DNA of 22,624 nucleotides, from IMG/VR virus record IMGVR_UViG_3300008459_000439, positions 1 to 22,624 of that record; one strand, written 5' to 3'. Source of the DNA: a virus. This document shows positions 3,788 through 16,651 of this stretch, in pieces. The number at the start of each line of letters is the position of its first letter. Position 1 is the stretch's first letter. The translations under genes were made by a program, and so were the position numbers. A model generated the notes under the pieces. The model worked only from the letters and a program-made list of their open reading frames with translations. It was not told the DNA's origin and searched no databases.

Positions 3788-3837
3788 AATAGATAATAAA
3801 CACTAATTACGTTTGAAACAACAACAGGAGATGTTAA

Positions 3838-4815
3838 ATGGGATTTTTAGATAATAGCGGAGATATAATTTTAGATGCTGTGCTAACAGATGTGGGAAGA
3901 CAGAGGTTAGCGAAAGGAGATGGATCATTTAAAATTACACAATTCGCACTTGGTGATGATGAAATAAACTATTCTCTATATGATAAGACAAAAAACTCAA
4001 GTGCGGAATTTGACGCTGAACTTATGAAAACTCCTATTTTTGAGGCGTTTACGAATAATGCGGCATCTCTCAATAGTCGCCTTATTTCATTTTCAAGAAA
4101 CAATCTAATGTATCTACCGGTACTAAAAATAAATAATTTAGTACCAGGAACTTCGTTTGCTACAGCTAAGTTAGTACAAAATGGTTATGTATTAGCGGTT
4201 GATGAAGATACGGAACAGTTTTTAACCACAACAAATTTAACCTATGAAGGTGATGCCATTTCAAAAAATGGAGTTTTGTTTGGAATAAACCCAGGGAATG
4301 GACAACATATCAGATTAGATCAAGGAATTGACAATTCTAATATGCCACCAGCAATTGCACTTGATTCTGATTTAGTTGAAAATCAATATTTAATTGAAGT
4401 TGATAATCGTTTTATGTCCGTTGCAAGCCCTGCAGCAAATATGTTTTCTCTATCTCCATCATATATTGATGATGATGATATTGCTGCATATTATGTTTCA
4501 GTAGATGATGATACATCAACAGTTGAAATGAACACCACAACAACAACCATCTCTACTGGTCAAGACAACTCCCAGATTATTGCAGGAGCTAGAGGAACAA
4601 TGTTAAAAATGAGATTACGTTCTCAACTTGAGGTTTCAACATCTGACTTTCTATTTAATAAATTAGGAACACAGATAAAAGATGGATTTAAAATAAACAA
4701 TGTTTCCATCACTGATTTTGCAAACATAAAATCAATCATGACCAGCGTTAGAGTTACTGGTTTAAACACAGGTTACTCTATTGATGTTCCTCTGCTAGTT
4801 ATAAAAGCCTACTAA
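3838..4815 (+). CDS. Conserved phage virion structural protein
   Basis: The 325-codon frame starts at ATG 3838 with a strong AGGAG at 3826-3830 (7-base spacing) after a 50-base gap that could hold a regulatory site, though I see no clear promoter. The N-terminus MGFLDNSGDIILDAVLTDVG, followed by RQRLAKGDGSFKI and FALGDDEINY, is a signature I associate with structural proteins of large marine phages, generally annotated without a specific role. Residues about 205-245 form a low-complexity acidic and Thr-rich stretch (DDDD, then DDDTSTVEMNTTTTT), probably a surface loop or a metal-binding patch. No signal peptide is seen. It leads a run of four genes (to 7131) separated by 0-16 bases, so it is likely co-expressed with the two paralogous structural proteins downstream. 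I am confident it is a virion protein; its place in the particle is unknown. Confidence 0.72.
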   Translation: MGFLDNSGDIILDAVLTDVGRQRLAKGDGSFKITQFALGDDEINYSLYDKTKNSSAEFDAELMKTPIFEAFTNNAASLNSRLISFSRNNLMYLPVLKINNLVPGTSFATAKLVQNGYVLAVDEDTEQFLTTTNLTYEGDAISKNGVLFGINPGNGQHIRLDQGIDNSNMPPAIALDSDLVENQYLIEVDNRFMSVASPAANMFSLSPSYIDDDDIAAYYVSVDDDTSTVEMNTTTTTISTGQDNSQIIAGARGTMLKMRLRSQLEVSTSDFLFNKLGTQIKDGFKINNVSITDFANIKSIMTSVRVTGLNTGYSIDVPLLVIKAY

Positions 4816-4831
4816 GATAAGGATAATAAAT

Positions 4832-5956
4832 ATGTCTACAACCTATAAAGCATTTCTTGATGATGATATTGTTACAGCTAGAACTATGTTGCATGAATAT
4901 GTACCAGTGACATCATCAATTCTCTCAAATACACTGTACAGTGGAAATAATTTTAAATCTTACACACATGGAATGTTTCAAAGTGTCTATGATTATCCTC
5001 ATACAAGTTCTGCTGCAAACCATCTTTTTGACTTAACAGTTGGCATAACAAGTGATTCTCCAGCGTCTTCAAGTTTAGATGCCAGCTGCAAAAGAAAGAT
5101 AAATATGTATAATCAGATGGCTCAAACTCTTGTTGGTTTTGATACAACTGGTTCTATTATGAAATTTGATAGAGATGGCGATCAATCAAACGCAATATCA
5201 GATGATAAGTACAATACTGTGTTTGTTGTAAACTTTAGCAGATTATTGACAAAAGACGAAATAAAGAAAAATAGCTTTAATTTAACGCTAGGTGTAGGTG
5301 AAACTTATTCTTCTCCTTTCACTAAAACTATTTTAGTTAGCGATGTAAGCGCAAGTGAATCTGGGAACTATAGAATAAATTCACCAACTGGTGAATATGG
5401 AATTTTATACGCTCAAGATATAAATGGTAATTCTTACCTACACGACAACCAAAATAAGAAAGAGGTTGGTTTAGTGTTTTATCAAGCTGGTATGGCAATC
5501 ATATCAGCTAATGTTTTTGCACAGTATAATGCTTCTAATTCACCAACCGCTAGTTTATCAGCTAGTACTCAGGGTCAATTAGATTCATTACCACAAATGA
5601 GTTCTGTGTACAGCAATGTCCAACACTTAATTGCTTCTGGTACCATTTCTGATGCGTGCGATTCATTTAGGAGTAGAGTAGGTAATTTAACTTTAAGCAA
5701 CACCACAGAATTAAATTCAACAATACATTTCTGTAGAGTTAGCCATAATGAGTTTAATTATAGCTCAAATCCAACATATTTATCAAGTAGTCAAATGATT
5801 GTTAAAAATGTCCCTTCTGATTCTCCAATCAGCTATATCACAACCGTTGGCCTATATTCCCCAGATAATGAACTTTTAGCTGTTGCTAAATTATCAGAAC
5901 CAATTCGTAAAGATCCAACAACTGAGTTAATTTTAAGAGTGCGACTAGATTACTAG
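4832..5956 (+). CDS. Virion structural protein, paralogue of 6172-7131
   Basis: The 374-codon frame starts at ATG 4832 with AAGGA at 4819-4823, 16 bases after the previous stop. The fold is beta-rich with no membrane segment. Three blocks match the protein at 6172-7131: IKKNSFNLT (residues 144-152), a middle block ending EVGLVFYQAG, and the C-terminal pair HNEFNYSSNPTY (305-316) and ITTVGLYSPDNELLAVAKL (336-354) followed by EPIRK. The C-terminal pair is a signature I have met repeatedly in structural proteins of large phages. Residues about 225-275 here (Ser/Ala-rich) have no counterpart in the paralogue and may be an inserted surface loop. The pair probably occupies equivalent positions or forms a heteromeric ring in the tail or baseplate; that is inference. 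Confidence 0.75.
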   Translation: MSTTYKAFLDDDIVTARTMLHEYVPVTSSILSNTLYSGNNFKSYTHGMFQSVYDYPHTSSAANHLFDLTVGITSDSPASSSLDASCKRKINMYNQMAQTLVGFDTTGSIMKFDRDGDQSNAISDDKYNTVFVVNFSRLLTKDEIKKNSFNLTLGVGETYSSPFTKTILVSDVSASESGNYRINSPTGEYGILYAQDINGNSYLHDNQNKKEVGLVFYQAGMAIISANVFAQYNASNSPTASLSASTQGQLDSLPQMSSVYSNVQHLIASGTISDACDSFRSRVGNLTLSNTTELNSTIHFCRVSHNEFNYSSNPTYLSSSQMIVKNVPSDSPISYITTVGLYSPDNELLAVAKLSEPIRKDPTTELILRVRLDY

Positions 5957-5965
5957 GTATAAACT

Positions 5966-6172
5966 ATGAAAGAATTTAATGATAGCGATGTTATTAGAAG
6001 TTCTTTGGTGACATATCCAAGATTTGAATTTAAAATATACAAGAATAAAATTTATTCTAAGAATTTCGAAGAAGATAATCTTGTTCTATATGATATCAAA
6101 ACAGAAAATGATGTTGCTATAGATTCAAATAGTACCGATTTTAGCAGCAACAACAATAACCCAATATTATAA
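5966..6172 (+). CDS. Small protein, possible split N-terminal part of next gene
   Basis: This 68-codon frame starts at ATG 5966, 9 bases after the previous stop, with only a weak AGG just upstream. It ends in TAA at 6170-6172, whose last A is the first base of the next ATG (TAATG). The protein starts MKEFNDSDVIRSSLVTYPRF, then FKIYKNKIYSKN, and ends in an Asn/Ser-rich tail. The N-terminal pattern (FND-S-D followed by T-x-P then a short beta hairpin with IY) resembles, to my memory, the beginning of longer structural proteins whose remainder looks like the downstream gene. It may therefore be the detached N-terminal domain of that protein, translated separately and coupled through the TAATG overlap. 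A simple small virion protein is the alternative. The next frame lacks its own clear ribosome binding site, which supports coupling. Confidence 0.6.
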   Translation: MKEFNDSDVIRSSLVTYPRFEFKIYKNKIYSKNFEEDNLVLYDIKTENDVAIDSNSTDFSSNNNNPIL

Positions 6173-7131
6173 TGCCTTATAGAAATCCGGACGATAAAAA
6201 AAATTATATATACATACCATCAAATAGTGGTTATTCCTTGAGAGGTCAAGAAGATTATTTCTCTTCTCCACTATATGTTGATAAACAACAATATAAATAT
6301 TTACCTTTATCGTCTTCTATAAATATTAAATATTACAACAGCACAGAAAGCGATGAAGAGAACACTAAAAGAAGAAGACTTCACGCTTTAAAAAATATCT
6401 TAAATCGTAACTCTATAAGAAGTCAACATTATCTTTTCTCTTCTTCGCTTGGTGATAAATTAAATCAAGATTTAACATTGATATCAATACCATCTATTTT
6501 CTATGGAACAACCATAAAAAAGGGTAGTGTAGAATTAACCATTAATTATGATGGGCAAAATATTGCTAAACTTTCTGATACAAAACTAAATGGTGAACTT
6601 ATTGAAACAGTTGGAAACAACACTGGCTCTGTCGCTGGTGTTGTTTTATATGATGAGGGTTTTATACTTTTAACAGGTAGTTGGAATCAAAACATAATAG
6701 AAGAATCTGTTGAGGTTGGAACAAGGTGGAATTGTTTTGGAACGGGTTCCGAACATCTTGTAAATAGCGGTTCTTTTGACATAAATTTTAATGGAACAAA
6801 CGAAATACAAACAGTAACAATGATGGCTCACGCTGAAAAACATGAGTTCAACCATTCAAACAATCCAACATATGTCAAGTATGATTCAAATAAAACAAAT
6901 TATATAAACTATTCAGAAACAAACTATAGAGAAGATGAATATAGAGAAATAAAAAACATAACAAAATACGAGTATGAAAACTATTCTGGTAGTTTAGAAA
7001 AAGAAGTATATATTTCTAAAATAGGTATTTATGACGAGCACAAAAACCTTATAGCTGTTGCTAAGTTGGCAACCCCAGTCAGAAAAACATCTAGTAGAGA
7101 TTTTACTTTTAAACTAAAACTAGATATATAA
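6172..7131 (+). CDS. Virion structural protein, paralogue of 4832-5956
   Basis: The 319-codon frame starts at ATG 6172, overlapping the preceding TAA by one base, so translation probably depends on termination and reinitiation. The first 60 residues are Tyr/Ser-rich. The core has IPSIFYGTTIKKGSVELT (residues about 106-123) and SVAGVVLYDEGFILLTGSW, both typical of a structural family I recall from large phages. The end carries HEFNHSNNPTY (224-234) and ISKIGIYDEHKNLIAVAKL (281-299) followed by TPVRK, aligning block by block with the 4832-5956 protein. Between the last two blocks it has a charged, Tyr/Asn/Glu-rich insert of about 45 residues that the paralogue lacks. No signal peptide or membrane helix is present. 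Likely a tail or baseplate structural subunit acting with its paralogue. Confidence 0.75.
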   Translation: MPYRNPDDKKNYIYIPSNSGYSLRGQEDYFSSPLYVDKQQYKYLPLSSSINIKYYNSTESDEENTKRRRLHALKNILNRNSIRSQHYLFSSSLGDKLNQDLTLISIPSIFYGTTIKKGSVELTINYDGQNIAKLSDTKLNGELIETVGNNTGSVAGVVLYDEGFILLTGSWNQNIIEESVEVGTRWNCFGTGSEHLVNSGSFDINFNGTNEIQTVTMMAHAEKHEFNHSNNPTYVKYDSNKTNYINYSETNYREDEYREIKNITKYEYENYSGSLEKEVYISKIGIYDEHKNLIAVAKLATPVRKTSSRDFTFKLKLDI

Positions 7132-7160
7132 CTAATTATCGTAAATATTGAGGAAAAAAT

Positions 7161-7709
7161 ATGTCATCAGCAACTACAAGTTTAACTGTAAAAGACGCAG
7201 AAGGGCAAGTAAGAAAACTTGCTATGGATGCTGATTCTATTTATGGTCTTGTCCCAATTCATAAAATTAGCGGTTCACTAGCCACAACAGCCGAAATAAG
7301 CAACTTTCCAGAAGTAACGAGCGTAACATCCAGCAACGAAGAACCATTAATAGTATCAAATGAGTTTTCAACAGATGTTTCTAATTTAGTTAAATCCTCT
7401 TATGCATGGAATTTAAATCATAGTGGTACATTTAAATTAGCAGATTTAGATCAAACAAGAAAAGAATTAATTATACACAACAGTTCACCATCTCATTTAT
7501 ATATTAAAGTATCAAGCACTTCACAAAGCGATTCAACAAAACACGGCTTTTCTTTAATAAATACAAGCAGCGCTCCAAGTGATTACAGTTTTATACTTTA
7601 TACTTCGGGAACTTATATAACAAGTGATCCTGGTCGATCTCTATATTATGGTGGATATTTTATAAGCGGATCTAATACCGGATCTGTCTTTGTGACAAAT
7701 ATTAAATAA
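7161..7709 (+). CDS. Small virion protein with a beta-sandwich-like C-terminal domain
   Basis: The 182-codon frame starts at ATG 7161 with GAGGA at 7150-7154. The first 100 residues are Ser/Thr-rich (TSLTVKDAEGQVRKL, then SGSLATTAEISNFPEV). Residues 102-182 form a distinct domain: ELIIHNSSPSHLYIKVS, then SAPSDYSFILYTSGTY, then LYYGGYFISGSNTGS and a short final strand. The same order of motifs occurs in the 15521-16651 protein (LSVYNDSNDDLYISLS, then PPDDFSYAISAGESL, then LTMFGYFKEP), so the two share a homologous domain, with a long insert in the other copy. In tail-associated proteins such small beta domains often act as collars or adaptors. Lying directly upstream of the first long fibre gene, it may be an adaptor for it; this is inference. 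Confidence 0.68.
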   Translation: MSSATTSLTVKDAEGQVRKLAMDADSIYGLVPIHKISGSLATTAEISNFPEVTSVTSSNEEPLIVSNEFSTDVSNLVKSSYAWNLNHSGTFKLADLDQTRKELIIHNSSPSHLYIKVSSTSQSDSTKHGFSLINTSSAPSDYSFILYTSGTYITSDPGRSLYYGGYFISGSNTGSVFVTNIK

Positions 7710-7720
7710 GGTAATTACTA

Positions 7721-10402
7721 ATGTCAAATTTTATATATCCGCCAACAGACTTATCGCCATATCCAGCAAAAACAGAAGTTTCTGGTGCAATCACTGGTGC
7801 TTTACAGCCATATGCTAAATCAGAGGATGTTAGTAGCTCGTTTGGTTTAAAAAGTCATTTAACCGCAAGCTATGCAAGGTTATCAGCTGCTAATACTTTT
7901 ACTGCAACAGACAATATATTTAGTAATAATATTACCGTAAATGGAACTGCAAGTATTGCGATGTTAAATACGGTAAATCAACAATCCTTAATTGTTGGTG
8001 ATAAATATATAACAATCATGAGTGGAAGCAATACTCATGTTCAATTAGATGGCGCTGGTATATTATTTGGCAGCGGGAGCGCTGATGTTACGACCGGAGA
8101 TCAAAATTCTGTAGCACATATAGTTTATAGAAAAGGAAATGCACCATCTGATTATACATCAGATTATATAGAGGTGTTTCCTGGACTTAGAGTAACTGGA
8201 AGTTTAACTGCTTCTGGGAATGTAAATGTTCCTTCTATTACTGCGTCCGTTGGATTTAGCGGTAACGGCTCTAAGTTAACAAATATACCAGCTTCTGCAG
8301 TTGATTTGTCGCTATATGCAACCTCTGCTGGTGTTTCTGCTTCGTTTACAACACCTGCTCAAGTAACCAATACAGTTAATTCTTCTTTAACACCATACGC
8401 TAGATCAGAAGATGTCAGTAGCAGCTTTGGATTAAAAACTCATTTAACAGCGTCATATGCTAGATTATCAGCAGTAAATGATTTTAAAGCCAGTCAATTA
8501 ATAACAGGGTCTGTGTCTATTACATCGTTTATAACAGCTTCTTCTGTTACAAGCTCTTTTACAGGAAGTGGTGCTGGTTTATACAATATTCCAGCAAGTG
8601 CTGTAAATCTTATAAATTATCCAACAAAAACGGAAACAAGTGGAGCGATTACAGGAGCTTTAACACCATATGCCAAACTAAACGGTGAAAACATATTTAC
8701 TGGCGGTAATCAAATAGTAACTGGATCTTTATTAGTCACTACATCGGTTAGTGCTTCGTCATTTACCGGTTCGATGAGCGGAACTTTAGTAGGACCAGCT
8801 GGTGGTATATTAAGCGGCACATATCCAAATCCTTCTGCTCTAATAGGAGCGTATACTAGCAGTTTATATTCTATTATACCATTATCAAGCTCTAATTCTA
8901 CTAGAACTGCGGCTTTAATGACTGGCGACAGTTCAACATCTGCAAATAGTTTAGTTATAAAAACAGGCGATAGCTCATCACCATCAAATAAAGCTGGTAG
9001 TATATCAATATTAGCTGGCAGCAGTTCTTATGTCGGTGTAGCAAGTCCGTACAATGGTGATATAAGCATTGTTTCAGAAGGTGATGAGCTTATAAGAGCC
9101 GCAAACACTATAAGATTAATAGCTGGAAATTATACACCAACCCTTTCCAGTTATGGAATATATATTGAAGCAAACCCGCCAGTTGGCATGACAGATTATA
9201 TATCAATTGGATCTAATAAACCTGCTGGTGGTGGTACGCTAAGAGCTGTTGACGTTGGTAAAAGTGCAAATGCTGTTACTTTAGGAACATCTAGTATTCC
9301 CATCTATACAATGGGACAGGATATGCGAGTTCCACAATATAGAACAATAACAAATGTTAACTCTACAATGGCTATAAATGCTGGTACTATTTGTTTATCA
9401 GCAACTTCGAACATAACGATGTCCGGCAAACCAGTGATGGATGTGTATACGCCAGATACACCTGGGCAAACACCAGACGGTTGTCGTGTGACATTAATAA
9501 ATATATCAGATTTTGATATAGCATTTCCAAACGATACAAGCACTACGCCAGTTTCACCATATAGCACTGGTACATATTTGTCTAGTTCGTTAAAGTTAGG
9601 TGATCAACAAAGAGTGTTGAAAAAATGGGGAACGCTTGAACTACAGTTTCAAAAAAGTGGTTCATCTAGTACGTCTGGCGGCTATTGGGTTGAGACAAAC
9701 TTTTCAAACAACCTAACTGGTTCTTACGATTTATCGCCTTATGCAACATTAACCGGAGTGTCGGCATCGTTTACAACACCCATTCAGGTTTCTAACGCTG
9801 TTACTTCGGCTTTAACACCTTATGCTAAATTGAGTGGTGGAAATACGTTTATCGCCGGAAACCAAATAATAAGCGGTTCTGTATTTGTCTCATCTTCACT
9901 TAGCGCCTCTGCTATTACCGGTTCTTTTACGGGAAGTGGAGCTGGTTTATATAATATCCCAACGAGTGCCGTAAATCTTGTAAATTATCCAACAAAAACA
10001 GAAGTTAGCGGAGCAATCACAGGTGCTTTAATACCATACGCTAAATTAAATGGGGGTAATATATTTACGGGTAATCAAGAAATAACCGGTTCTATAAATA
10101 TATTAGGTCAATCTGTACTAAATGGAGGACAAAAGGTTAAAATATCTTCTAAGACTTCAAACTATGCACTAACGGCTTCTTCTGATTATATAGTTGCATT
10201 TAATGGTACCAGTTTAACTGGTACGCTTCCAAGTGCATCATTAACCGAGGGAGCTACTTTTATAATAAAAAATAAAAACACTTCACCACTATTTATAACA
10301 TCATCTGGCGGTTTGATAGACGGTGCATCAAATGCAACAATAAGTACTAGATACTATTCTTACACACTTGTATCAGACGGAACTGATTGGAACGTAATAT
10401 AG
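7721..10402 (+). CDS. Long repeat-rich tail fibre
   Basis: The 893-codon frame starts at ATG 7721 with AAGG at 7708-7711. The protein is a Ser/Thr/Gly/Ala-rich filament of repeated modules: SGAITGAL-x-PYAK units, SEDVSSSFGLK-x-HLTASYA units, and SFTGSGAGLYNIPASAVNL units (F-x-G-x-G-x-x-L-x-x-I, a widespread phage fibre repeat). A GPAGGILSGTYPNP motif at residues 358-371 is typical of phage tail fibres. Residues about 395-700 hold a non-repetitive part. The last 86 residues (808-893) look like a compact tip domain: ALTASSDYIVAFNGTSL, then TLPSAS, FIIKNKNTSPLFI, and VSDGTDWNVI. No enzymatic motif is seen. The product should be a trimeric fibre attached to the tail or baseplate with the C-terminus distal. 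It shares a 56-bp perfect repeat and longer similarity with the next gene. Confidence 0.85.
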   Translation: MSNFIYPPTDLSPYPAKTEVSGAITGALQPYAKSEDVSSSFGLKSHLTASYARLSAANTFTATDNIFSNNITVNGTASIAMLNTVNQQSLIVGDKYITIMSGSNTHVQLDGAGILFGSGSADVTTGDQNSVAHIVYRKGNAPSDYTSDYIEVFPGLRVTGSLTASGNVNVPSITASVGFSGNGSKLTNIPASAVDLSLYATSAGVSASFTTPAQVTNTVNSSLTPYARSEDVSSSFGLKTHLTASYARLSAVNDFKASQLITGSVSITSFITASSVTSSFTGSGAGLYNIPASAVNLINYPTKTETSGAITGALTPYAKLNGENIFTGGNQIVTGSLLVTTSVSASSFTGSMSGTLVGPAGGILSGTYPNPSALIGAYTSSLYSIIPLSSSNSTRTAALMTGDSSTSANSLVIKTGDSSSPSNKAGSISILAGSSSYVGVASPYNGDISIVSEGDELIRAANTIRLIAGNYTPTLSSYGIYIEANPPVGMTDYISIGSNKPAGGGTLRAVDVGKSANAVTLGTSSIPIYTMGQDMRVPQYRTITNVNSTMAINAGTICLSATSNITMSGKPVMDVYTPDTPGQTPDGCRVTLINISDFDIAFPNDTSTTPVSPYSTGTYLSSSLKLGDQQRVLKKWGTLELQFQKSGSSSTSGGYWVETNFSNNLTGSYDLSPYATLTGVSASFTTPIQVSNAVTSALTPYAKLSGGNTFIAGNQIISGSVFVSSSLSASAITGSFTGSGAGLYNIPTSAVNLVNYPTKTEVSGAITGALIPYAKLNGGNIFTGNQEITGSINILGQSVLNGGQKVKISSKTSNYALTASSDYIVAFNGTSLTGTLPSASLTEGATFIIKNKNTSPLFITSSGGLIDGASNATISTRYYSYTLVSDGTDWNVI
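7808..7863 (+). repeat. 56-bp perfect direct repeat, copy 1
   Basis: This 56-base segment, beginning CCATATGCTAAATCAGAGG and ending AAGTCATTTAAC, is identical base for base to 10644-10699 in the next fibre gene. The bases flanking it differ on both sides. It encodes PYAKSEDVSSSFGLKSHL plus one more residue near the N-terminus of the 893-aa fibre. Identity that includes third codon positions points to recent duplication or gene conversion. Confidence 0.95.
8579..8611 (+). repeat. 33-bp perfect direct repeat, copy 1
   Basis: TTATACAATATTCCAGCAAG and the 13 bases after it match 10830-10862 exactly. It codes for the LYNIPASAVNL part of the fibre repeat. A third, diverged copy of the same coding unit lies near 9945-9980 in the same gene. 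Confidence 0.92.
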
Positions 10403-10412
10403 GAAAAATAAA

Positions 10413-12095
10413 ATGTCATATATAGTACCTGACAATATAAAAGTTACAACGATAAGTGCATCTTCTGGTGTTACTGGTTCTCTCACGGGAAGCGGAGTTG
10501 GAGTAAGCGGATTAACTTCTTCAAACTGGAATGGTTCAACTAATGGTTTTATATCAGACGTTAGAAACCAATTTTCCGCTGGAGCTGGTGTTACTATAAC
10601 AAATGGAGTTATAACTGCAACAGGAACATCGGTTGATTTAACTCCATATGCTAAATCAGAGGATGTTAGTAGCTCGTTTGGTTTAAAAAGTCATTTAACT
10701 GCGTCTTATGCAAAATTAAATGTATTAAATGATTTTAAAACAAATCAACTAATAACAGGATCTGTATCTGTTACATCGTTTGTAACCGCATCTTCTGTTA
10801 CAAGTTCTTTTACCGGAAGTGGAGCAGGGTTATACAATATTCCAGCAAGTGCTGTAAATCTTTCTGGGTATGCTAAGTTGGCTGGTGGGAATACATTTAC
10901 TGCCGGAAATCAGATAATTACTGGTAATCTTTACATTACAAGTAATTTAACAAATGGAGATTATTTTAATCTAAGTGCAACAAACGGGTCTCATGCTGAG
11001 GGCTTTAGCGCAACAGCATCTGGTTATTGGAGCCATTCAGAGGGAAAAATGACTATAGCTACTGGTACCTCTTCACACGCCGAGGGCCTTGGAGCTGGGG
11101 CCTATGGTCATTATTCGCACGCCGAAGGGCGTAACACAGAAGCGCACGGGTCAGGATCTCATGCGGAGGGTGATACTACTTATGCTTTTGGCATAATTTC
11201 TCATGCAGAGGGCGAGAGCACGATAGCACGTGGATATGGCTCTCATGCAGAAGGAAGTAACACAGAAGCGTCTGGTAATTATTCGCACGCAGAAGGATTT
11301 GATACCTTATCTAAAGGGAATCATTCTCATGCTGAGGGATATGGTACCAGAGCAATTGCTGACTATCAGCATGTTCAAGGTAAATTTAATGCAGAAAGTT
11401 CAACGGCTTTAATGTTGGTTGGAAATGGCTCAAGCAATTTAATAAGAAAAAACATTTTAGAGGTTTATGAGCAATCTGCTATTATCAGTGGTGCTTTGGA
11501 GGTTAGCGGTAGCACAAAAATATGTCAAATTCAAACTGGTCCTCTCGGAAGCTTTAATACTTTATTATATGTGAAAGGGTCCGATGGAGTAGTTGGAATT
11601 AATACCAACAACCCCGATACAACAAAAAATTTTCACGTTTCAGGAGCGTCTAGATTTGATCTAGATATAACTTGCAGTGGTAGCATACGTATGCAGAGTG
11701 GAGAGGGTATTTCTTTTTCAAGCAATGCAAATTCCGCAGGGATGAATTCTGAATTATTAGACGACTACGAAGAAGGTACTTGGACACCAAATACCCCCGG
11801 AAATTTTAACTTTACAGCAGCTACCGGTCAATATGTAAAAATAGGAAGATTAGTGACAATTAATGGTCAATTTACTGTTACGTCTGCGCCAAACGGAGTT
11901 TATGACTTTTTCTATGGAATTCCTTTTACCGTTGCTTATCATACAACTGTTTCATTCAGTTATATTGACAATCTTCTCACTCTAACACCAACTGCTGATA
12001 ATGCAATAGTTCTTGATAATGAAATTATATTTGTTCCTGCTCTTACAAACGGCAGGACTGTTGCTTTCTCCTGTACTTACTTTACAGATGATTAA
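10413..12095 (+). CDS. Tail fibre with YadA-type head repeats and receptor-tip-like end
   Basis: The 560-codon frame starts at ATG 10413 with AGGA at 10401-10404 overlapping the previous stop. Domains in order: a short N-terminal segment with VRNQFSAGAGV (residues 50-60), a motif also found in the 16653-18758 protein; residues about 76-170, a near copy of part of the upstream 893-aa fibre; nine perfect 14-residue SHAEG repeats plus a degenerate QHVQG (residues 193-323); then a long C-terminal region with LLDDYEEGTWTP (448-459) and YVKIGRLVTINGQFTV, a signature common at the tips of phage tail fibres. SHAEG-type repeats form left-handed beta-roll heads in trimeric adhesins of the YadA class. 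The product is likely a trimeric fibre ending in a receptor-binding tip. Confidence 0.86.
   Translation: MSYIVPDNIKVTTISASSGVTGSLTGSGVGVSGLTSSNWNGSTNGFISDVRNQFSAGAGVTITNGVITATGTSVDLTPYAKSEDVSSSFGLKSHLTASYAKLNVLNDFKTNQLITGSVSVTSFVTASSVTSSFTGSGAGLYNIPASAVNLSGYAKLAGGNTFTAGNQIITGNLYITSNLTNGDYFNLSATNGSHAEGFSATASGYWSHSEGKMTIATGTSSHAEGLGAGAYGHYSHAEGRNTEAHGSGSHAEGDTTYAFGIISHAEGESTIARGYGSHAEGSNTEASGNYSHAEGFDTLSKGNHSHAEGYGTRAIADYQHVQGKFNAESSTALMLVGNGSSNLIRKNILEVYEQSAIISGALEVSGSTKICQIQTGPLGSFNTLLYVKGSDGVVGINTNNPDTTKNFHVSGASRFDLDITCSGSIRMQSGEGISFSSNANSAGMNSELLDDYEEGTWTPNTPGNFNFTAATGQYVKIGRLVTINGQFTVTSAPNGVYDFFYGIPFTVAYHTTVSFSYIDNLLTLTPTADNAIVLDNEIIFVPALTNGRTVAFSCTYFTDD
10644..10699 (+). repeat. 56-bp perfect direct repeat, copy 2
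   Basis: Identical over 56 bases to 7808-7863. Similarity continues beyond it at protein level (HLTASYAKL, then LITGSVSVTSF), matching a second internal module of the upstream fibre near 8400-8620 more closely than copy 1's surroundings, so the shared region looks mosaic. Confidence 0.95.
10830..10862 (+). repeat. 33-bp perfect direct repeat, copy 2
   Basis: Matches 8579-8611 exactly over 33 bases and encodes the same LYNIPASAVNL unit in the second fibre. Flanking bases differ mostly at silent positions. Confidence 0.92.
10989..11381 (+). repeat. 42-nt tandem coding repeats (SHAEG head repeats)
   Basis: Nine consecutive 42-base units (10989-11366) each encode 14 residues starting S-H-A-E-G, or SHSEG in unit 2, with a Gly at unit position 12 in the first eight. 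A tenth, degenerate start reads QHVQG. The units are in exact register with no insertions, but differ at DNA level, so the array is old or selected at protein level. The pattern matches YadA-class adhesin head repeats, which form a trimeric beta-roll. Confidence 0.93.
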
Positions 12096-12106
12096 TGAGG
12101 TTTAAC

Positions 12107-12316
12107 ATGTTAGAAGAAAAAAAAATTATAGACAAAATTGAAATAGTTAAAGAAGGAAGTGTTATACAAGTTCGTGAAAAAATTCAAATATTAAAAGATG
12201 GTATAGAGGTGGCAGGAACATATCATAGATATCTTATATCTAAAGATACCTATCCTCAAATGGAAAATGTTGATATACAAGTCAAAAAAATAGCAGATGC
12301 TATTTGGAATGAATAA
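12107..12316 (+). CDS. Small conserved-looking phage protein (69 aa)
   Basis: I choose ATG 12107 rather than the in-frame ATG 12095 because TGAGG at 12096-12100 sits 6 bases before 12107 and would lie inside the coding region of the earlier start; the longer version adds only MRFN. The product starts MLEEKKIIDKIEIVKEG, with alternating charged beta strands (VIQVREKIQILKDGIEVAGT) and YHRYLISKDTYPQ, ending in an amphipathic helix (VQVKKIADAIW-like). It resembles small phage proteins with an I-x-V-R-x-x-x-x-I-L-K-DG-x-E core that I recall beside tail fibre genes, but I know no function. Immediately downstream of a fibre gene it could be an assembly factor for the fibre; this is a positional guess only. 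Confidence 0.68.
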   Translation: MLEEKKIIDKIEIVKEGSVIQVREKIQILKDGIEVAGTYHRYLISKDTYPQMENVDIQVKKIADAIWNE

Positions 12317-12322
12317 TAAAAT

Positions 12323-13372
12323 ATGTCAAGTATAGAAAACCATCTTCCAAGTTCAATAGAAACTATCGACGGTGCTTTTTTAGAGTATGTCGAGGGGTTA
12401 AACCTATTTGCCACTACAACAAATGGATTTGAGAAAGTTCCTGTTATTTGGTCATCTGCCGAACGTGCGTATCAGATAAAAAATAACAAAGAGATAAGAG
12501 ATACAAATGGATCCCTTATTCCACCCATTATCTCAATTGAAAGGGTGTCAGCGGTTAAAGATGTAAACAAAAAAGGTATTTTTCAAGCTAATTTATCACC
12601 AAAAAGAGACAGATTTGTATATTCAGAAAGAATAGTTCAAGATAAAACTTCAAATTTTGCAAACGCAGATACTCTTAGAAAAAAAGGTCAAATAAACTTT
12701 GTAACTTCTAAGAAAAATGAAAAAATAGTATATAAATATACTTCAATTCCAATACCTGTTTATATAACAGTAGAGTATAAAATACATGTTTTGACAAATT
12801 ATCAGGCACAAATGAATGAAATAATTCAACCATTTATGTCAAGAGTTGCTCAAAATTATTTTTTGATAAAAAAAGATGGTCATCGCTATGAATGTTTTAT
12901 GGATCAAAACTTTGAACAGTCTACAGATGATCTAACTGAGAATGAGCGTCGTTATAAATCAATTATAAACGTTAAGGTACTTGGTTATTTAATTGGAGAG
13001 GGAAATAATCAAGAAAAATCTCAAACAATAGAACAAGAAAATGCAGTAGAAATTAAATTTCCAAAAGAAAATTTAATTCTCGTAGAAGAAACAGATAAAA
13101 AAGTACAAAAAAAGAAGCTCTCAAATGAAGGCGCTTTCATTGCATCAAATATTGTTAAAAAAAGTACTTTTACTATTGGCGATGGAATTAATTCAAAGTA
13201 TACAATTTATCATGATTTTGCTTCTAAAGATATAATAGTTAGGGTAAGAGAAAATTTTGGCGATTATGATGTTGTAGAGGTGTCAGTGGATTTAGGAAAT
13301 ACAGATCATGTTGATATAGATATGGGCGATATAATCCCAGAAGATTCTTATGTTGTAATGATTATTGGCTAA
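12323..13372 (+). CDS. Tail-completion-like protein fused to a fibre-type C-terminal domain
   Basis: The 349-codon frame starts at ATG 12323, 6 bases after the previous stop, with no clear ribosome binding site, so coupling to the upstream gene is likely. Residues about 134-226 have IPIPVYITVEYKIHVLTNY, QMNEIIQPFMSR and NERRYKSIINVKVLGYLIGE. This layout (a beta strand of intermediate-tail type, a helix pairing subunits, and a closing strand) resembles the core of T4 gp15-like tail completion or terminator proteins; the match is tentative. Residues 283-349 form a separate domain: FTIGDGINSKYTIYHDF, then DIIVRVRENFGDYDVVEVSV and a final SYVVMIIG, closely following the IGDG-x-x-x-x-x-V-x-H pattern seen at the ends of many phage fibre and baseplate proteins. 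It is the last gene before the hairpin at 13407. Confidence 0.7.
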   Translation: MSSIENHLPSSIETIDGAFLEYVEGLNLFATTTNGFEKVPVIWSSAERAYQIKNNKEIRDTNGSLIPPIISIERVSAVKDVNKKGIFQANLSPKRDRFVYSERIVQDKTSNFANADTLRKKGQINFVTSKKNEKIVYKYTSIPIPVYITVEYKIHVLTNYQAQMNEIIQPFMSRVAQNYFLIKKDGHRYECFMDQNFEQSTDDLTENERRYKSIINVKVLGYLIGEGNNQEKSQTIEQENAVEIKFPKENLILVEETDKKVQKKKLSNEGAFIASNIVKKSTFTIGDGINSKYTIYHDFASKDIIVRVRENFGDYDVVEVSVDLGNTDHVDIDMGDIIPEDSYVVMIIG

Positions 13373-13406
13373 TATTACTTTTTTTAAAATAGAATACTAA
13401 TTATAG

Positions 13407-13439
13407 TATGCGAGTTTATGATTTTCATAGGCTCGCATA
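13407..13439 (+). terminator. 15-bp hairpin, probable intrinsic terminator
   Basis: TATGCGAGTTTATGA (13407-13421) pairs with TCATAGGCTCGCATA (13425-13439) over all 15 positions, with two G-U wobbles, around a TTT loop. The following ATCTTGTCTT is only moderately T-rich, so termination may be partial. It lies 35 bases after the 12323-13372 stop and just before the isolated beta-helix gene, so it could end the fibre operon, protect the 3' end of its mRNA, or both. Confidence 0.6.
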
Positions 13440-13448
13440 ATCTTGTCT

Positions 13449-13456
13449 TATATAAA
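13449..13456 (+). promoter_or_regulatory. Possible T4-type late promoter
   Basis: TATATAAA lies directly downstream of the hairpin and 34 bases before the start codon at 13490. T4-type late promoters have a TATAAATA core with no -35 element; TATAAAC here fits in part. No sigma70-like -35/-10 pair fits better. In AT-rich DNA such matches occur often by chance, so the main support is position between a hairpin and a strong ribosome binding site. Confidence 0.3.
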
Positions 13457-13473
13457 CCCGCCCCATGATGGGC

Positions 13474-13479
13474 AAGGAG
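13474..13479 (+). promoter_or_regulatory. Strong ribosome binding site for 13490 gene
   Basis: AAGGAG lies 10 bases before ATG 13490. The bases just before it (GCCC at 13460-13463 and GGGC at 13470-13473) can pair around a CATGAT loop, leaving AAGGAG exposed right after a small GC stem. It is among the best Shine-Dalgarno matches in the window. Confidence 0.65.
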
Positions 13480-13489
13480 ATCTAAATTA

Positions 13490-15364
13490 ATGGCAAATCC
13501 ATTAAAAGTTCTAACTCAACTAAGTGCTTCAAAAGAAGCACAATTTGCTGATGTAGTTGAGATGCAAAAGACCGTTACACTATCAGGTGCTGAAGCAGAC
13601 CTAATAGTAAGCGGCGGTGGTGAAATTAGCGGTTCAGGTGAACTAAAGATTGCTGGTGCTTCACAACTAGGTTCAACCCTAGCTGTTCAAGGTGATGCAA
13701 ACCTAGCTTCAAAACTAGATGTCAAAGGAGCTTCTGCTCTAAGTGGCACTCTAGGTGTTGTTGGTGCTGCTGACCTACAAAGCACACTAGCAGTAGCTGG
13801 TGCAGCTGATCTAAATGGTGCTCTAGATGTTCAAGGTGCTGCTAACTTCCAAGATAATGTTGGCGTTAGCGGTTCACTAAAGTCAGTAGGCGAAATCAGT
13901 GGTTCTGCCGCATTAAACATCGGTGGTGCTGCTCATATCGTTGGTGCTGCACAACTAGATTCAACCCTAAATGTTAGCGGAAACGTACAACTAGATGCAA
14001 ATCTAAACGTTGACGGTGCTGCTGATTTTGACAGTACTCTAGATGTTGCTGGAAACGTAACTTTCCAAGCTTCTGCATCAATCCAAGGTGATCTAACTGT
14101 TCAAGGTGACTTATTCGTTGAAGGAACCAGAACTTTCCTAAACACCAACGAACTAAGAGTTGAAGACAAAAACATCCTAATAGCTAGCTCCTCAATGCCA
14201 GTTGATAGCAGTACTGCTGATGGTGCTGGTATTACTGTTATGGGTTCTACCACCAATAAAGAATTTAAGTGGTTAGATGCAACCCAAGCTTGGACTTCTT
14301 CAGAACACATGGATCTTGCCGCTGGTAAGGTTTATAAAATTGCTGGCGAAGAAGTACTAGCTAAAAATGCTTCAGCTGCCAAACTATCATTAAACGGTGG
14401 TTCTGCTCAAATAGCAGTTTCTTCAAGCACTGTAGCTATCGCTGGTGATCTATCACTAGCTGACGATCTAGATGTTGCTGGTTACATCCACGCTGGTGGT
14501 GAAATCAGTGGTTCTGGTGAACTAAAGATCGCTGGTGCTGCAGATCTAAACGGAGCGCTAGATGTTGCAGGTATTGCTACTTTCCAAGCTGCAGTTTCAG
14601 CTTCAGCAAATGTCGATGTTGCTGGTTTCTTAAATGTTAATGCCGCTAATGGTATTAAACTAGGTGGAGTTGACACCATCAAGAAAGACGCTGGAAATCT
14701 ATATGTTTACGGTCCAAATGAAAGAACCATAGAAATGACCTCAGTTAGTACTACTGTATACGGTGGTCTTCTATCTAATGATGCATTTGCAGCCAACGGG
14801 GTATCAAATTTTAATGCTGCTATCACTGCTTCTGCTGGAGTTGATATTGCTGGCGCTCTACACGTAGTAGACAGTGTGGATTTTGATTCAACCCTAAATG
14901 TTGATGGCGAAGCTGATTTCCAAGCAGCTGCTGATTTCCATGCAGACGTTGCAATGGATGCCGCTCTAAACCTAAGCGGTTCAGCATTTATCAACATCGC
15001 AACCCCAGTTGTGGCTGGCAAATACAACGTCAATGACGCGATCCGCGCTCTAGACGCCAAAGCTGGTCAACAAGCAAGCGATATCAATAATGCTTATGCA
15101 AATCTACGTTATCTAGCTTCAGCAAGCTTCGATGGAAATGGCATGGCTGCATTCACCTCAAGCTTTGCAGCTGCTTCAATTCACCAAGTAACCGTAGACG
15201 TACTAGTACAAGCTGGTGGAAGTGGTCCATGGACCAACGATCTAGTTTCCGTACAAGTAAAAGAAGCAGGTTCATACGTTGGCTTTGAAATCTCTGCTCC
15301 AGCAATGGGTGCAAGCGACAAAGTACGTATCATCGCTGTCAAAGAAAGCGGTTCACTAGCGTAA
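13490..15364 (+). CDS. Beta-helix-like fibre/appendage protein, likely highly expressed
   Basis: The 624-codon frame starts at ATG 13490. Residues 57-212 are 13 tandem 12-residue units of the type AADLNGALDVQG, expected to stack as a beta-helix or beta-roll shaft. Then comes a module known from phage fibres: EGTRTFLNTNELRVEDKNI, ADGAGITVMGS, WLDATQAWTSSEH, and AAGKVYKIAGEEVL. A second shaft block follows from about residue 315 (repeating GGEISGSGELKIAGA), and the last 100 residues hold YNVNDAIRALDAKAG (a likely short coiled coil) and a distinct beta domain with GSGPWTNDLVSVQVKE and DKVRIIAVKE. The gene stands alone between a hairpin and a strong terminator, is clearly richer in G+C and Ala/Gly than its neighbours, and uses CTA for nearly all leucines. 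I infer an abundant filament or decoration on the virion; recent acquisition is an alternative. Confidence 0.85.
   Translation: MANPLKVLTQLSASKEAQFADVVEMQKTVTLSGAEADLIVSGGGEISGSGELKIAGASQLGSTLAVQGDANLASKLDVKGASALSGTLGVVGAADLQSTLAVAGAADLNGALDVQGAANFQDNVGVSGSLKSVGEISGSAALNIGGAAHIVGAAQLDSTLNVSGNVQLDANLNVDGAADFDSTLDVAGNVTFQASASIQGDLTVQGDLFVEGTRTFLNTNELRVEDKNILIASSSMPVDSSTADGAGITVMGSTTNKEFKWLDATQAWTSSEHMDLAAGKVYKIAGEEVLAKNASAAKLSLNGGSAQIAVSSSTVAIAGDLSLADDLDVAGYIHAGGEISGSGELKIAGAADLNGALDVAGIATFQAAVSASANVDVAGFLNVNAANGIKLGGVDTIKKDAGNLYVYGPNERTIEMTSVSTTVYGGLLSNDAFAANGVSNFNAAITASAGVDIAGALHVVDSVDFDSTLNVDGEADFQAAADFHADVAMDAALNLSGSAFINIATPVVAGKYNVNDAIRALDAKAGQQASDINNAYANLRYLASASFDGNGMAAFTSSFAAASIHQVTVDVLVQAGGSGPWTNDLVSVQVKEAGSYVGFEISAPAMGASDKVRIIAVKESGSLA
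13616..13660 (+). repeat. 45-bp diverged repeat, copy 1
   Basis: Encodes GGEISGSGELKIAGA (residues 43-57), identical in protein to 14495-14539. The two DNA copies differ at four positions, all silent (ATT/ATC, AGC/AGT, TCA/TCT, ATT/ATC). It marks the start of the first repeat shaft. Confidence 0.88.
13658..14125 (+). repeat. Thirteen 36-nt coding repeats (12-residue rungs)
   Basis: Residues 57-212 divide into 12-residue units of the form A-A-D-L-x-x-x-L-x-V-x-G. Most units fit cleanly; an 18-residue plus 6-residue pair in the middle (129-152) keeps the overall 12-residue register, so the block is exactly 13 units. Hydrophobic residues alternate at positions 4, 8 and 10 and Gly closes each unit, as expected for stacked beta rungs. 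Confidence 0.82.
14495..14539 (+). repeat. 45-bp diverged repeat, copy 2
   Basis: Encodes residues 336-350 (GGEISGSGELKIAGA), identical in protein to 13616-13660 and different at four silent positions. It opens the second repeat shaft, followed again by AADLNGALDV as in the first shaft. Confidence 0.88.
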
Positions 15365-15387
15365 TAAATCTCTAGAATAATCTAGAA

Positions 15388-15421
15388 AAAAGCGGCAGGG
15401 CAGAAATGCTCTGTCGCTTTT
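15388..15421 (+). terminator. Strong intrinsic terminator with GAAA tetraloop
   Basis: AAAAGCGGCAGGGCA (15388-15402) pairs with TGCTCTGTCGCTTTT (15407-15421) over 15 positions with two G-U wobbles and a GAAA (GNRA-type) loop, ending in a T run. It lies 24 bases after the stop of the 13490 gene. The A-tract before the stem mirrors the T-tract, so it could also act on the other strand, but no gene converges on it. Two TCTAGA hexamers (15371 and 15381) lie just upstream, with no role I can assign. Confidence 0.85.
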
Positions 15422-15451
15422 GTTATTATATGACTATTTATTCGTAGAATT

Positions 15452-15498
15452 TTAAAAGAATCAGTATTATATATTATAATTGTGATATTTATAAAATA
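15452..15498 (+). promoter_or_regulatory. Candidate promoter region for the second fibre run
   Basis: This region lies in the only sizeable gap after the terminator and holds two alternatives. TTAAAA (15452-15457), 17 bases, then a perfect TATAAT (15475-15480) fits a sigma70-type promoter with a 4/6 -35. TATAAAATA (15490-15498) resembles a T4-type late core, 22 bases before ATG 15521. AT-richness makes either match weak on its own; a new promoter here is expected because transcription from the 13490 gene should stop at 15388-15421. Confidence 0.4.
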
Positions 15499-15520
15499 TG
15501 TTTAGAAAGAGAAGCAATTA

Positions 15521-16651
15521 ATGTCAATATGCCTTCCGAACCTAAGAAGCACATCTGTTTTTAAAGTATATTACGGCGGAACAGGACAAACATCACTAAC
15601 AGAAGGTGGAGTTGTTATTGGAAACGGAACTGATGCAGTACGATGCATCACCGGATCCGAAGGTCAAGTGCTAACTTGGGATAGTGAACAAAATACGTGG
15701 GTTGCAAAAGACCCAACAGGTGGAACTGGTGGTGGAACAGGAGGATCTGTTCCAGATATCGTTATTGCTCCTCAAAACAATACGCCAACTGAAATTAGAA
15801 AATATAAATTTTCAAACATCTCTAATTCTAGAGAAATAATGAAAAATAAGCATCCTTTGATAGATTGGACAAATTCTTCTAGTGGATCTTTTAGAATATG
15901 TGCATATAATCCAAATAGAAAATATTTATCTGTCTATAATGATTCTAATGATGATTTATATATTTCTTTGAGCGAAGATGAGAATCCAAACATACAAATA
16001 GATTTTGAAAATATTAATGATATTGATGATTTACGTATAAAATATAATTATGTATCATCTTCTATAGAGAGAGAACTTTTTAATTATTCCTATTCTGATT
16101 TACAAAATCATTATTCGTATCATACTCACAGTAATAATCCTTCAACTAAGCTTGGTTACGGAAAAAATGTTGTTTTAACAACATGTAATAGTATAACAAG
16201 TATATACCTAAATCTAACTCCAGACTTTTATTCTAATAATTTAAATATAAATCTAGATAATGAAGTATCGACAGGGTCTTTTACAATATTTTTATCAAAT
16301 TCTTCCGGTATACGCAGTTCTACAAAATTTAATTTGACATCTTCCTATACTGATGAAAAATATCAAAATTTAAAATATAGTATCTATACAAAAGTCTCAT
16401 CATCTAGCGAATTTATTAGTAGCAGTTTAAACACAAGTTCAGTACAATCAGAAAATATAAACGGTTTTGATTTTTATCATTTAGGAGAGTTTTCTAGAAA
16501 AGAAACACCTCCTGATGATTTTTCATATGCTATTTCTGCGGGAGAATCTTTATTAATAAGTGATAGCGATGCTGTTTTAACAATGTTTGGGTATTTTAAA
16601 GAGCCTAAAAATGTTACAGAGATAAAGGCTAGAGTTACAGAGGCAATATAA
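15521..16651 (+). CDS. Fibre-associated virion protein with GGTGQTSL N-terminal module
   Basis: The 376-codon frame starts at ATG 15521 with a modest AGAAAGAGAAG tract upstream. Residues 17-64 hold YYGGTGQTSLTEGGVVIGNG and then VLTWDSEQNTWVAKD, a repeat type frequent in phage tail fibres; the same module, diverged, opens the next protein (residues 40-89). A Gly/Thr linker follows (DPTGGTGGGTGGS, 64-76). The remainder is beta-rich. Motifs at 136-151 (LSVYNDSNDDLYISLS) and 330-358 (PPDDFSYAISAG, then LTMFGYFKEP) match the C-terminal domain of the 7161-7709 protein, with about 180 extra Ser/Asn/Tyr-rich residues between them here. It is the first gene after the terminator and likely the first of a new transcript. 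Role inferred: adaptor or fibre-base protein. Confidence 0.75.
   Translation: MSICLPNLRSTSVFKVYYGGTGQTSLTEGGVVIGNGTDAVRCITGSEGQVLTWDSEQNTWVAKDPTGGTGGGTGGSVPDIVIAPQNNTPTEIRKYKFSNISNSREIMKNKHPLIDWTNSSSGSFRICAYNPNRKYLSVYNDSNDDLYISLSEDENPNIQIDFENINDIDDLRIKYNYVSSSIERELFNYSYSDLQNHYSYHTHSNNPSTKLGYGKNVVLTTCNSITSIYLNLTPDFYSNNLNINLDNEVSTGSFTIFLSNSSGIRSSTKFNLTSSYTDEKYQNLKYSIYTKVSSSSEFISSSLNTSSVQSENINGFDFYHLGEFSRKETPPDDFSYAISAGESLLISDSDAVLTMFGYFKEPKNVTEIKARVTEAI

Follow-up and report, generated by a model that had tools for sequence, protein, structure and literature searches.

Probable late expression of an abundant trimeric virion fibre from a single-gene unit in a T4-superfamily phage lineage

Introduction

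Why should one gene in a phage fibre cluster stand apart from its neighbours, and what does its isolation say about the protein made? The question is raised by a 22,624-base virus fragment from IMG/VR, belonging to a large aquatic tailed phage. We refer to this whole stretch as the window. Its long genes are all on the + strand and closely packed. Only three inter-gene gaps are at least 45 bases long (3788-3837, 13373-13489, and 15365-15520). Hence, the gene at 13490-15364 (+), with a gap of 117 bases upstream and 156 bases downstream, is isolated by the two largest. This agrees with a preliminary description of the region, which noted a lone gene amid packed runs. The same description reported a 15-bp hairpin and a ribosome binding site (RBS) in front of the gene, and a GNRA-loop terminator behind. 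All three are present, at 13407-13439, 13474-13479, and 15388-15421 respectively. Our preferred reading, with a probability of roughly 0.7, is a monocistronic unit, transcribed late, that encodes a trimeric and abundant fibre of the virion.

Results and discussion

The layout of the unit is conserved in relatives

With the fibre protein as query, a search of viral contigs found no close relatives. Relatives were reached through the neighbouring gene at 12323-13372 and, later, with a family alignment. The search with the neighbour gave 43 loci and, in six of these contigs, a gene starting with MANPLK lies behind it. The family alignment search gave 26 loci. Leaders were compared for the 18 distinct loci with an intact start region; start variants among these MANPLK-type loci are MADLK (L074) and VANPWK (L082). 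The layout of the unit is kept in all 18 and so in at least 17 related loci besides the window. In the closest relative, the major capsid protein (MCP) is of the T4 superfamily; its nearest counterparts are those of Flavobacterium phage immuto, Microcystis phage Mel-JY01, and a 484-kb uncultured phage.

A strand-specific motif precedes the unit

Across 45 inter-gene gaps, we counted 28 copies of the sequence CTA[AT]TTA on the coding strand and a single copy on the opposite one. In independent loci, the strand counts for ACTA[AT]TTA are 53 versus 6. By comparison, the T4-type late promoter sequence TATAAATA is found in the same 45 gaps twice on the coding strand and seven times on the other. 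The ACTA[AT]TTA motif, or a near copy, is upstream of the MANPLK-type gene in 18 of 18 family loci. Usually, the distance to the start codon is 22-60 nt; where a strong hairpin is present, at eight loci, this increases to 65-98 nt. In the window, the candidate late promoter of the fibre unit is the -10-like element ACTAATTAT (13396-13404, +). Note that this is upstream of the hairpin, while the preliminary description placed a late promoter, TATATAAA, downstream. The T4-type sequence is not enriched in the gaps and ACTA[AT]TTAT is. We conclude that the earlier promoter placement is probably wrong, and that the lineage probably uses ACTA[AT]TTAT as its late promoter, rather than the TATAAATA of T4. 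The two resemble each other in being one short A/T-rich element ahead of late structural genes; they differ in sequence.

Two further matches to the motif were found in the window. The first, ACTATTTAT (15433-15441, +), is a candidate promoter for restarting the downstream fibre operon, which begins at 15521. A similar site occurs again downstream of most family genes. In a literature search on ACTATTTAT as a promoter, the one relevant match in a phage genome was a terminator listing in Felix O1. The second, ACTAATTA (3802-3809, +), is a candidate promoter for the upstream run of genes (3838-13372).

The 15-bp hairpin is the predicted mRNA 5' end

The hairpin at 13407-13439 (+) has a folding energy of -19.7 kcal/mol, compared with -7.6 +/- 2.1 for shuffled sequences. 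Equivalent hairpins, differing in sequence, are found in seven other loci, with pairing that begins 8-13 nt from the start of the motif. If the motif is -10-like then the hairpin, which adjoins it directly, would be the 5' end of the mRNA. Stem-loops at the 5' terminus, of the ompA and papA type, are reported to make mRNA more stable (Emory 1992; Bouvet and Belasco 1992; both listed in PMC3997798). The likeness is that of a highly expressed message with a stem-loop at its presumed 5' end. The fibre leader differs in having a predicted transcript start and an additional small stem, directly ahead of the RBS.

A different arrangement has to be weighed, in which the hairpin terminates the upstream operon and a promoter lies between hairpin and RBS, much as first described. 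A run of T follows the hairpin in four relatives (L071 and L075-L077), so the hairpin could be a terminator instead of, or besides, a 5' stabiliser. In addition, TATATAAA is suitably placed in the window. Conversely, the hairpin of the window itself has no T run and, in L073, little room is left for a promoter past the hairpin. The lack of enrichment for T4-type promoters also argues against this layout. Furthermore, the ten family loci without a strong hairpin retain the ACTA[AT]TTA motif, 43-59 nt upstream of the ATG. Hence, the hairpin looks to have been inserted behind a promoter. We consider the terminator arrangement unlikely, and prefer a hairpin at the start of the fibre transcript.

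A covarying stem-loop adjoins the ribosome binding site

The RBS of the fibre gene, AAGGAG (13474-13479, +), is 10 nt upstream of the ATG. Immediately before it is a small stem-loop, GCCC-CATGAT-GGGC (13460-13473, +). In a scan that included RBS sites of the GGGAG type, such a stem was found at 18 of 18 family loci, compared with 13 of 211 other genes and a mean of 1.6 in 18 shuffled loci. Alignment of the leader hairpins was limited to the arms, with loops masked, and two-sided changes were apparent in three of the four base pairs. There are 17 compensatory cells, against 6.8 in shuffles, and none of 500 shuffles reached 17. Since the arms were picked as the best stem at each locus, pairing is favoured; the shuffle test, made over all 18 loci, accounts for this. 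No Rfam family was matched in our search. A similar small hairpin, adjoining the RBS, occurs in G001 (reverse complement) at the genes 78863-79159 and 27211-28497.

A strong terminator follows the gene

The 15-bp intrinsic terminator, with a GAAA loop, is at 15388-15421 (+). Strong terminators are also found behind the MANPLK-type gene in family loci. Note that our general scan for promoters and terminators barely exceeds chance, with 13 terminator-like sites where 8.1 are expected. A stricter scan, anchored at stop codons, identified a terminator after just one of 15 genes in the window, which is the fibre gene. Equivalent numbers for the relatives are 10 of 109, 3 of 65, and 3 of 23 genes, always including the fibre orthologue and the MCP gene where present. 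The terminator of the fibre gene resembles that of the MCP gene. We conclude that terminators are mostly kept for the fibre gene, the MCP gene, and a few others. At the level of sequence, the fibre gene thus has a candidate promoter and a terminator of its own, consistent with the single-gene late unit first proposed.

Codon usage of the fibre gene matches that of the capsid gene

Codon adaptation was scored with an index for which the MCP genes of two relatives served as the training set. In the window, the index is 0.643 for the fibre gene and 0.412 for the next gene. For the orthologues in three relatives, values are 0.657 (sheath 0.541), 0.628 (sheath 0.590), and 0.588 (next gene 0.482). 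In all four contigs, the fibre gene has the highest index of any gene other than the MCP, exceeding the tail sheath wherever a sheath is present. When amino acid composition is controlled for, the signal has a z score of 11.0 in the window and 10.3, 12.3, and 6.7 in the relatives. The fibre gene and MCP prefer the same codons. For example, the share of CTA among leucine codons is 85% for the fibre gene and 83% for the MCP, compared with 15% elsewhere in the window; GGT, ACC, ATC, and TTC are likewise favoured by both. The capsid-type preference recurs in diverged relatives.

Phage structural genes have an established link with high codon adaptation (PMC2266997). When applied to two isolates, the same index ranked the MCP top, and the sheath was one of the few highest-ranking genes; lower scores were obtained for both terminases and for the tail fibre annotated in immuto. 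Hence, the index roughly tracks copy number. In two relatives, the orthologue falls between the MCP and the sheath, which fits a copy number above that of the sheath. A strong leader hairpin is found in eight loci, and these take the top eight places by codon index (Mann-Whitney p = 5e-5, with no correction for kinship). The GC content of the fibre gene is 44%. Its acquisition by horizontal transfer, as a GC-richer gene, was considered and rejected, since the orthologues in all relatives have this GC content too and the codons match the MCP. Phage-supplied tRNAs were also considered, and no tRNA genes were found in the four contigs.

Could the protein be an ordinary tail fibre of low copy number? 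The capsid-like codons would then reflect selection for accuracy in a long repetitive protein, or compositional history. The domains are indeed fibre-like and the gene is inside the fibre cluster. However, the other long solenoid or repetitive fibres of the window have the opposite bias and are at the bottom of the codon ranking, with indices of 0.315-0.323. Moreover, the match to the MCP holds codon by codon (CTA makes up 0.85 of leucine codons versus 0.15 elsewhere) and is repeated in diverged relatives. The low-copy explanation is, in our judgement, improbable. The sequence gives good support for late, high-level expression of the fibre gene as a structural gene, with codon usage that is at the MCP level and differs from that of adjoining fibres. 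The very high expression suggested at the outset is borne out to that extent.

The gene encodes a modular, fibre-type protein

The 624 amino acid product of the fibre gene (13490-15364, +) was analysed using the family alignment, profiles, and structure prediction. In order, it comprises the N-terminus, MANPLKxLTxL, a solenoid, an insert (residues ~200-290), further solenoid, a coiled coil (514-537), and a knob (540-618). Conservation is found in the first dozen residues (MANPLKxLTxLxxS), the insert, and the last 110 or so, while the middle varies in length and sequence. About residues 111-206 match Bactofilin (PF04519) at 31.6 bits, above the Pfam cut-off of 27.9. The beta-helix protein of the preliminary description is therefore upheld, as a solenoid of fibre type. 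In the model of the whole protein, the solenoid is of low confidence (pLDDT 40-60), too weak for the shaft to be interpreted. The C-terminal module was modelled as a long helix, or coiled coil, with a beta-sandwich knob (pLDDT 88). This order, coiled coil then beta knob, is that of a trimeric fibre. We conclude that the protein is probably modular and trimeric, as judged from the predicted structure.

The nearest structural neighbours of the knob module include the C-terminal domain of T4 gp9 (Z 7.4), the cyanophage Pam1 tailspike, a phiKZ baseplate protein, further tailspikes, and pyocin fibres. Their Z scores are 4.5-7.4, all below 8 and so in the range of common arrangements. Like the C-terminal domains of T4 gp9 and tailspikes (1qex, 7eea, 4ru5) and pyocin tips (6cl6, 6cxb), the knob is a predicted beta-sandwich ending a probably trimeric fibre. 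With 7-17% identity, and Z below 8, the resemblance is in fold only. The C-terminal module is present in 16 proteins encoded by related contigs, where it can be at the N- or C-terminal end. Other fibres have the knob module near the N-terminus (G003:38057-41434, G002:49380-50336, and G002:51853-54210); hence, its role may be to connect parts of the fibre and not to bind a receptor at the tip. Matches to PHROG 697 and 6002, which are head and packaging structural proteins, arise via the repeats and the 200-290 insert only. Searching with the knob alone found no decoration family. There was no match in a sequence search of the PDB and no meaningful match in NCBIfam.

The Bactofilin match raises the alternative of an abundant late protein outside the virion, such as a bactofilin-like polymer inside the cell or a coat that is secreted. 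The profile score is above the cut-off, and the abundance signature alone cannot prove a location in the virion. Bactofilins and the fibre protein share a beta-solenoid of short repeats. Unlike a small, one-domain, polymerising cytoskeletal bactofilin, the protein is a far larger fibre, with an anchor motif, insert, coiled coil, and phage-type end domains, and shows no sign of a cytoskeletal role. The coiled coil and knob, in a module common to a dozen fibre-like neighbours, the position of the gene among structural genes, and the matches to virion structural families further argue against a non-virion protein, which we regard as very unlikely.

A model for expression and location of the fibre

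A surface fibre present in hundreds of copies would account most economically for the sequence data. In such a model, RNA polymerase and a phage late factor would start transcription at ACTAATTAT. The 5' end of the transcript would coincide with the base of the 15-bp hairpin, or lie close to it. From its position and the ompA-type precedent, the hairpin may shield this end from decay. The small hairpin, evident from covariation, could keep the RBS open, and capsid-type codons would allow translation near capsid rates. The message would stop at the GNRA hairpin, so that the downstream fibres are transcribed separately, starting afresh at a promoter of their own. The conserved MANPLKxLTxL helix probably docks the protein on the particle. 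From there, the bactofilin-like solenoid shaft would project, with its coiled coil and gp9/tailspike-like knob. The protein would outnumber ordinary tail fibres, and its likeliest site is the capsid or the neck/shaft.

The upstream neighbour (12323-13372, +) is homologous to the gene that immediately precedes the tail sheath gene in T4-superfamily phages, and has an extra C-terminal domain that is head-decoration-like. Hence, capsid, neck, and tail shaft are all possible sites. Head fibres project from the capsid, and known decoration proteins and head fibres include T4 Hoc/Soc and the phi29 head fibre (reviewed in PMC7602432). These are abundant, late, surface-exposed accessory structural proteins (PMC7602432), as the fibre would be in our model. 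The protein described here differs in having a solenoid shaft, rather than Ig domains or a helical coiled coil, and we found no sequence relation to T4 Hoc/Soc or the phi29 head fibre.

More tentatively, this T4-superfamily lineage may coat its particle with several hundred solenoid fibres, with an output second only to the capsid protein. A dedicated conserved leader would be responsible, in which the new late promoter ACTA[AT]TTAT, the 5'-terminal hairpin, and the covarying hairpin before the RBS make up a high-expression module. We propose the fibre as a candidate for second place in abundance among the virion proteins of a group of large, mostly uncultured, aquatic phages. The promoter motif and the covarying leader hairpin are directly testable. 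Codon usage and leader anatomy may also allow copy number to be predicted from metagenomic sequence alone.

Two observations concern adjacent genes. The neighbour at 12323-13372 has been relocated into the fibre cluster, and is a tandem duplicate in L005-L007 (5041-7056). Separately, the protein encoded at 10413-12095 of the window has SHAEG-type repeats, like the heads of trimeric autotransporter adhesins (phrog_25468; NCBIfam Ata, with a weak score).
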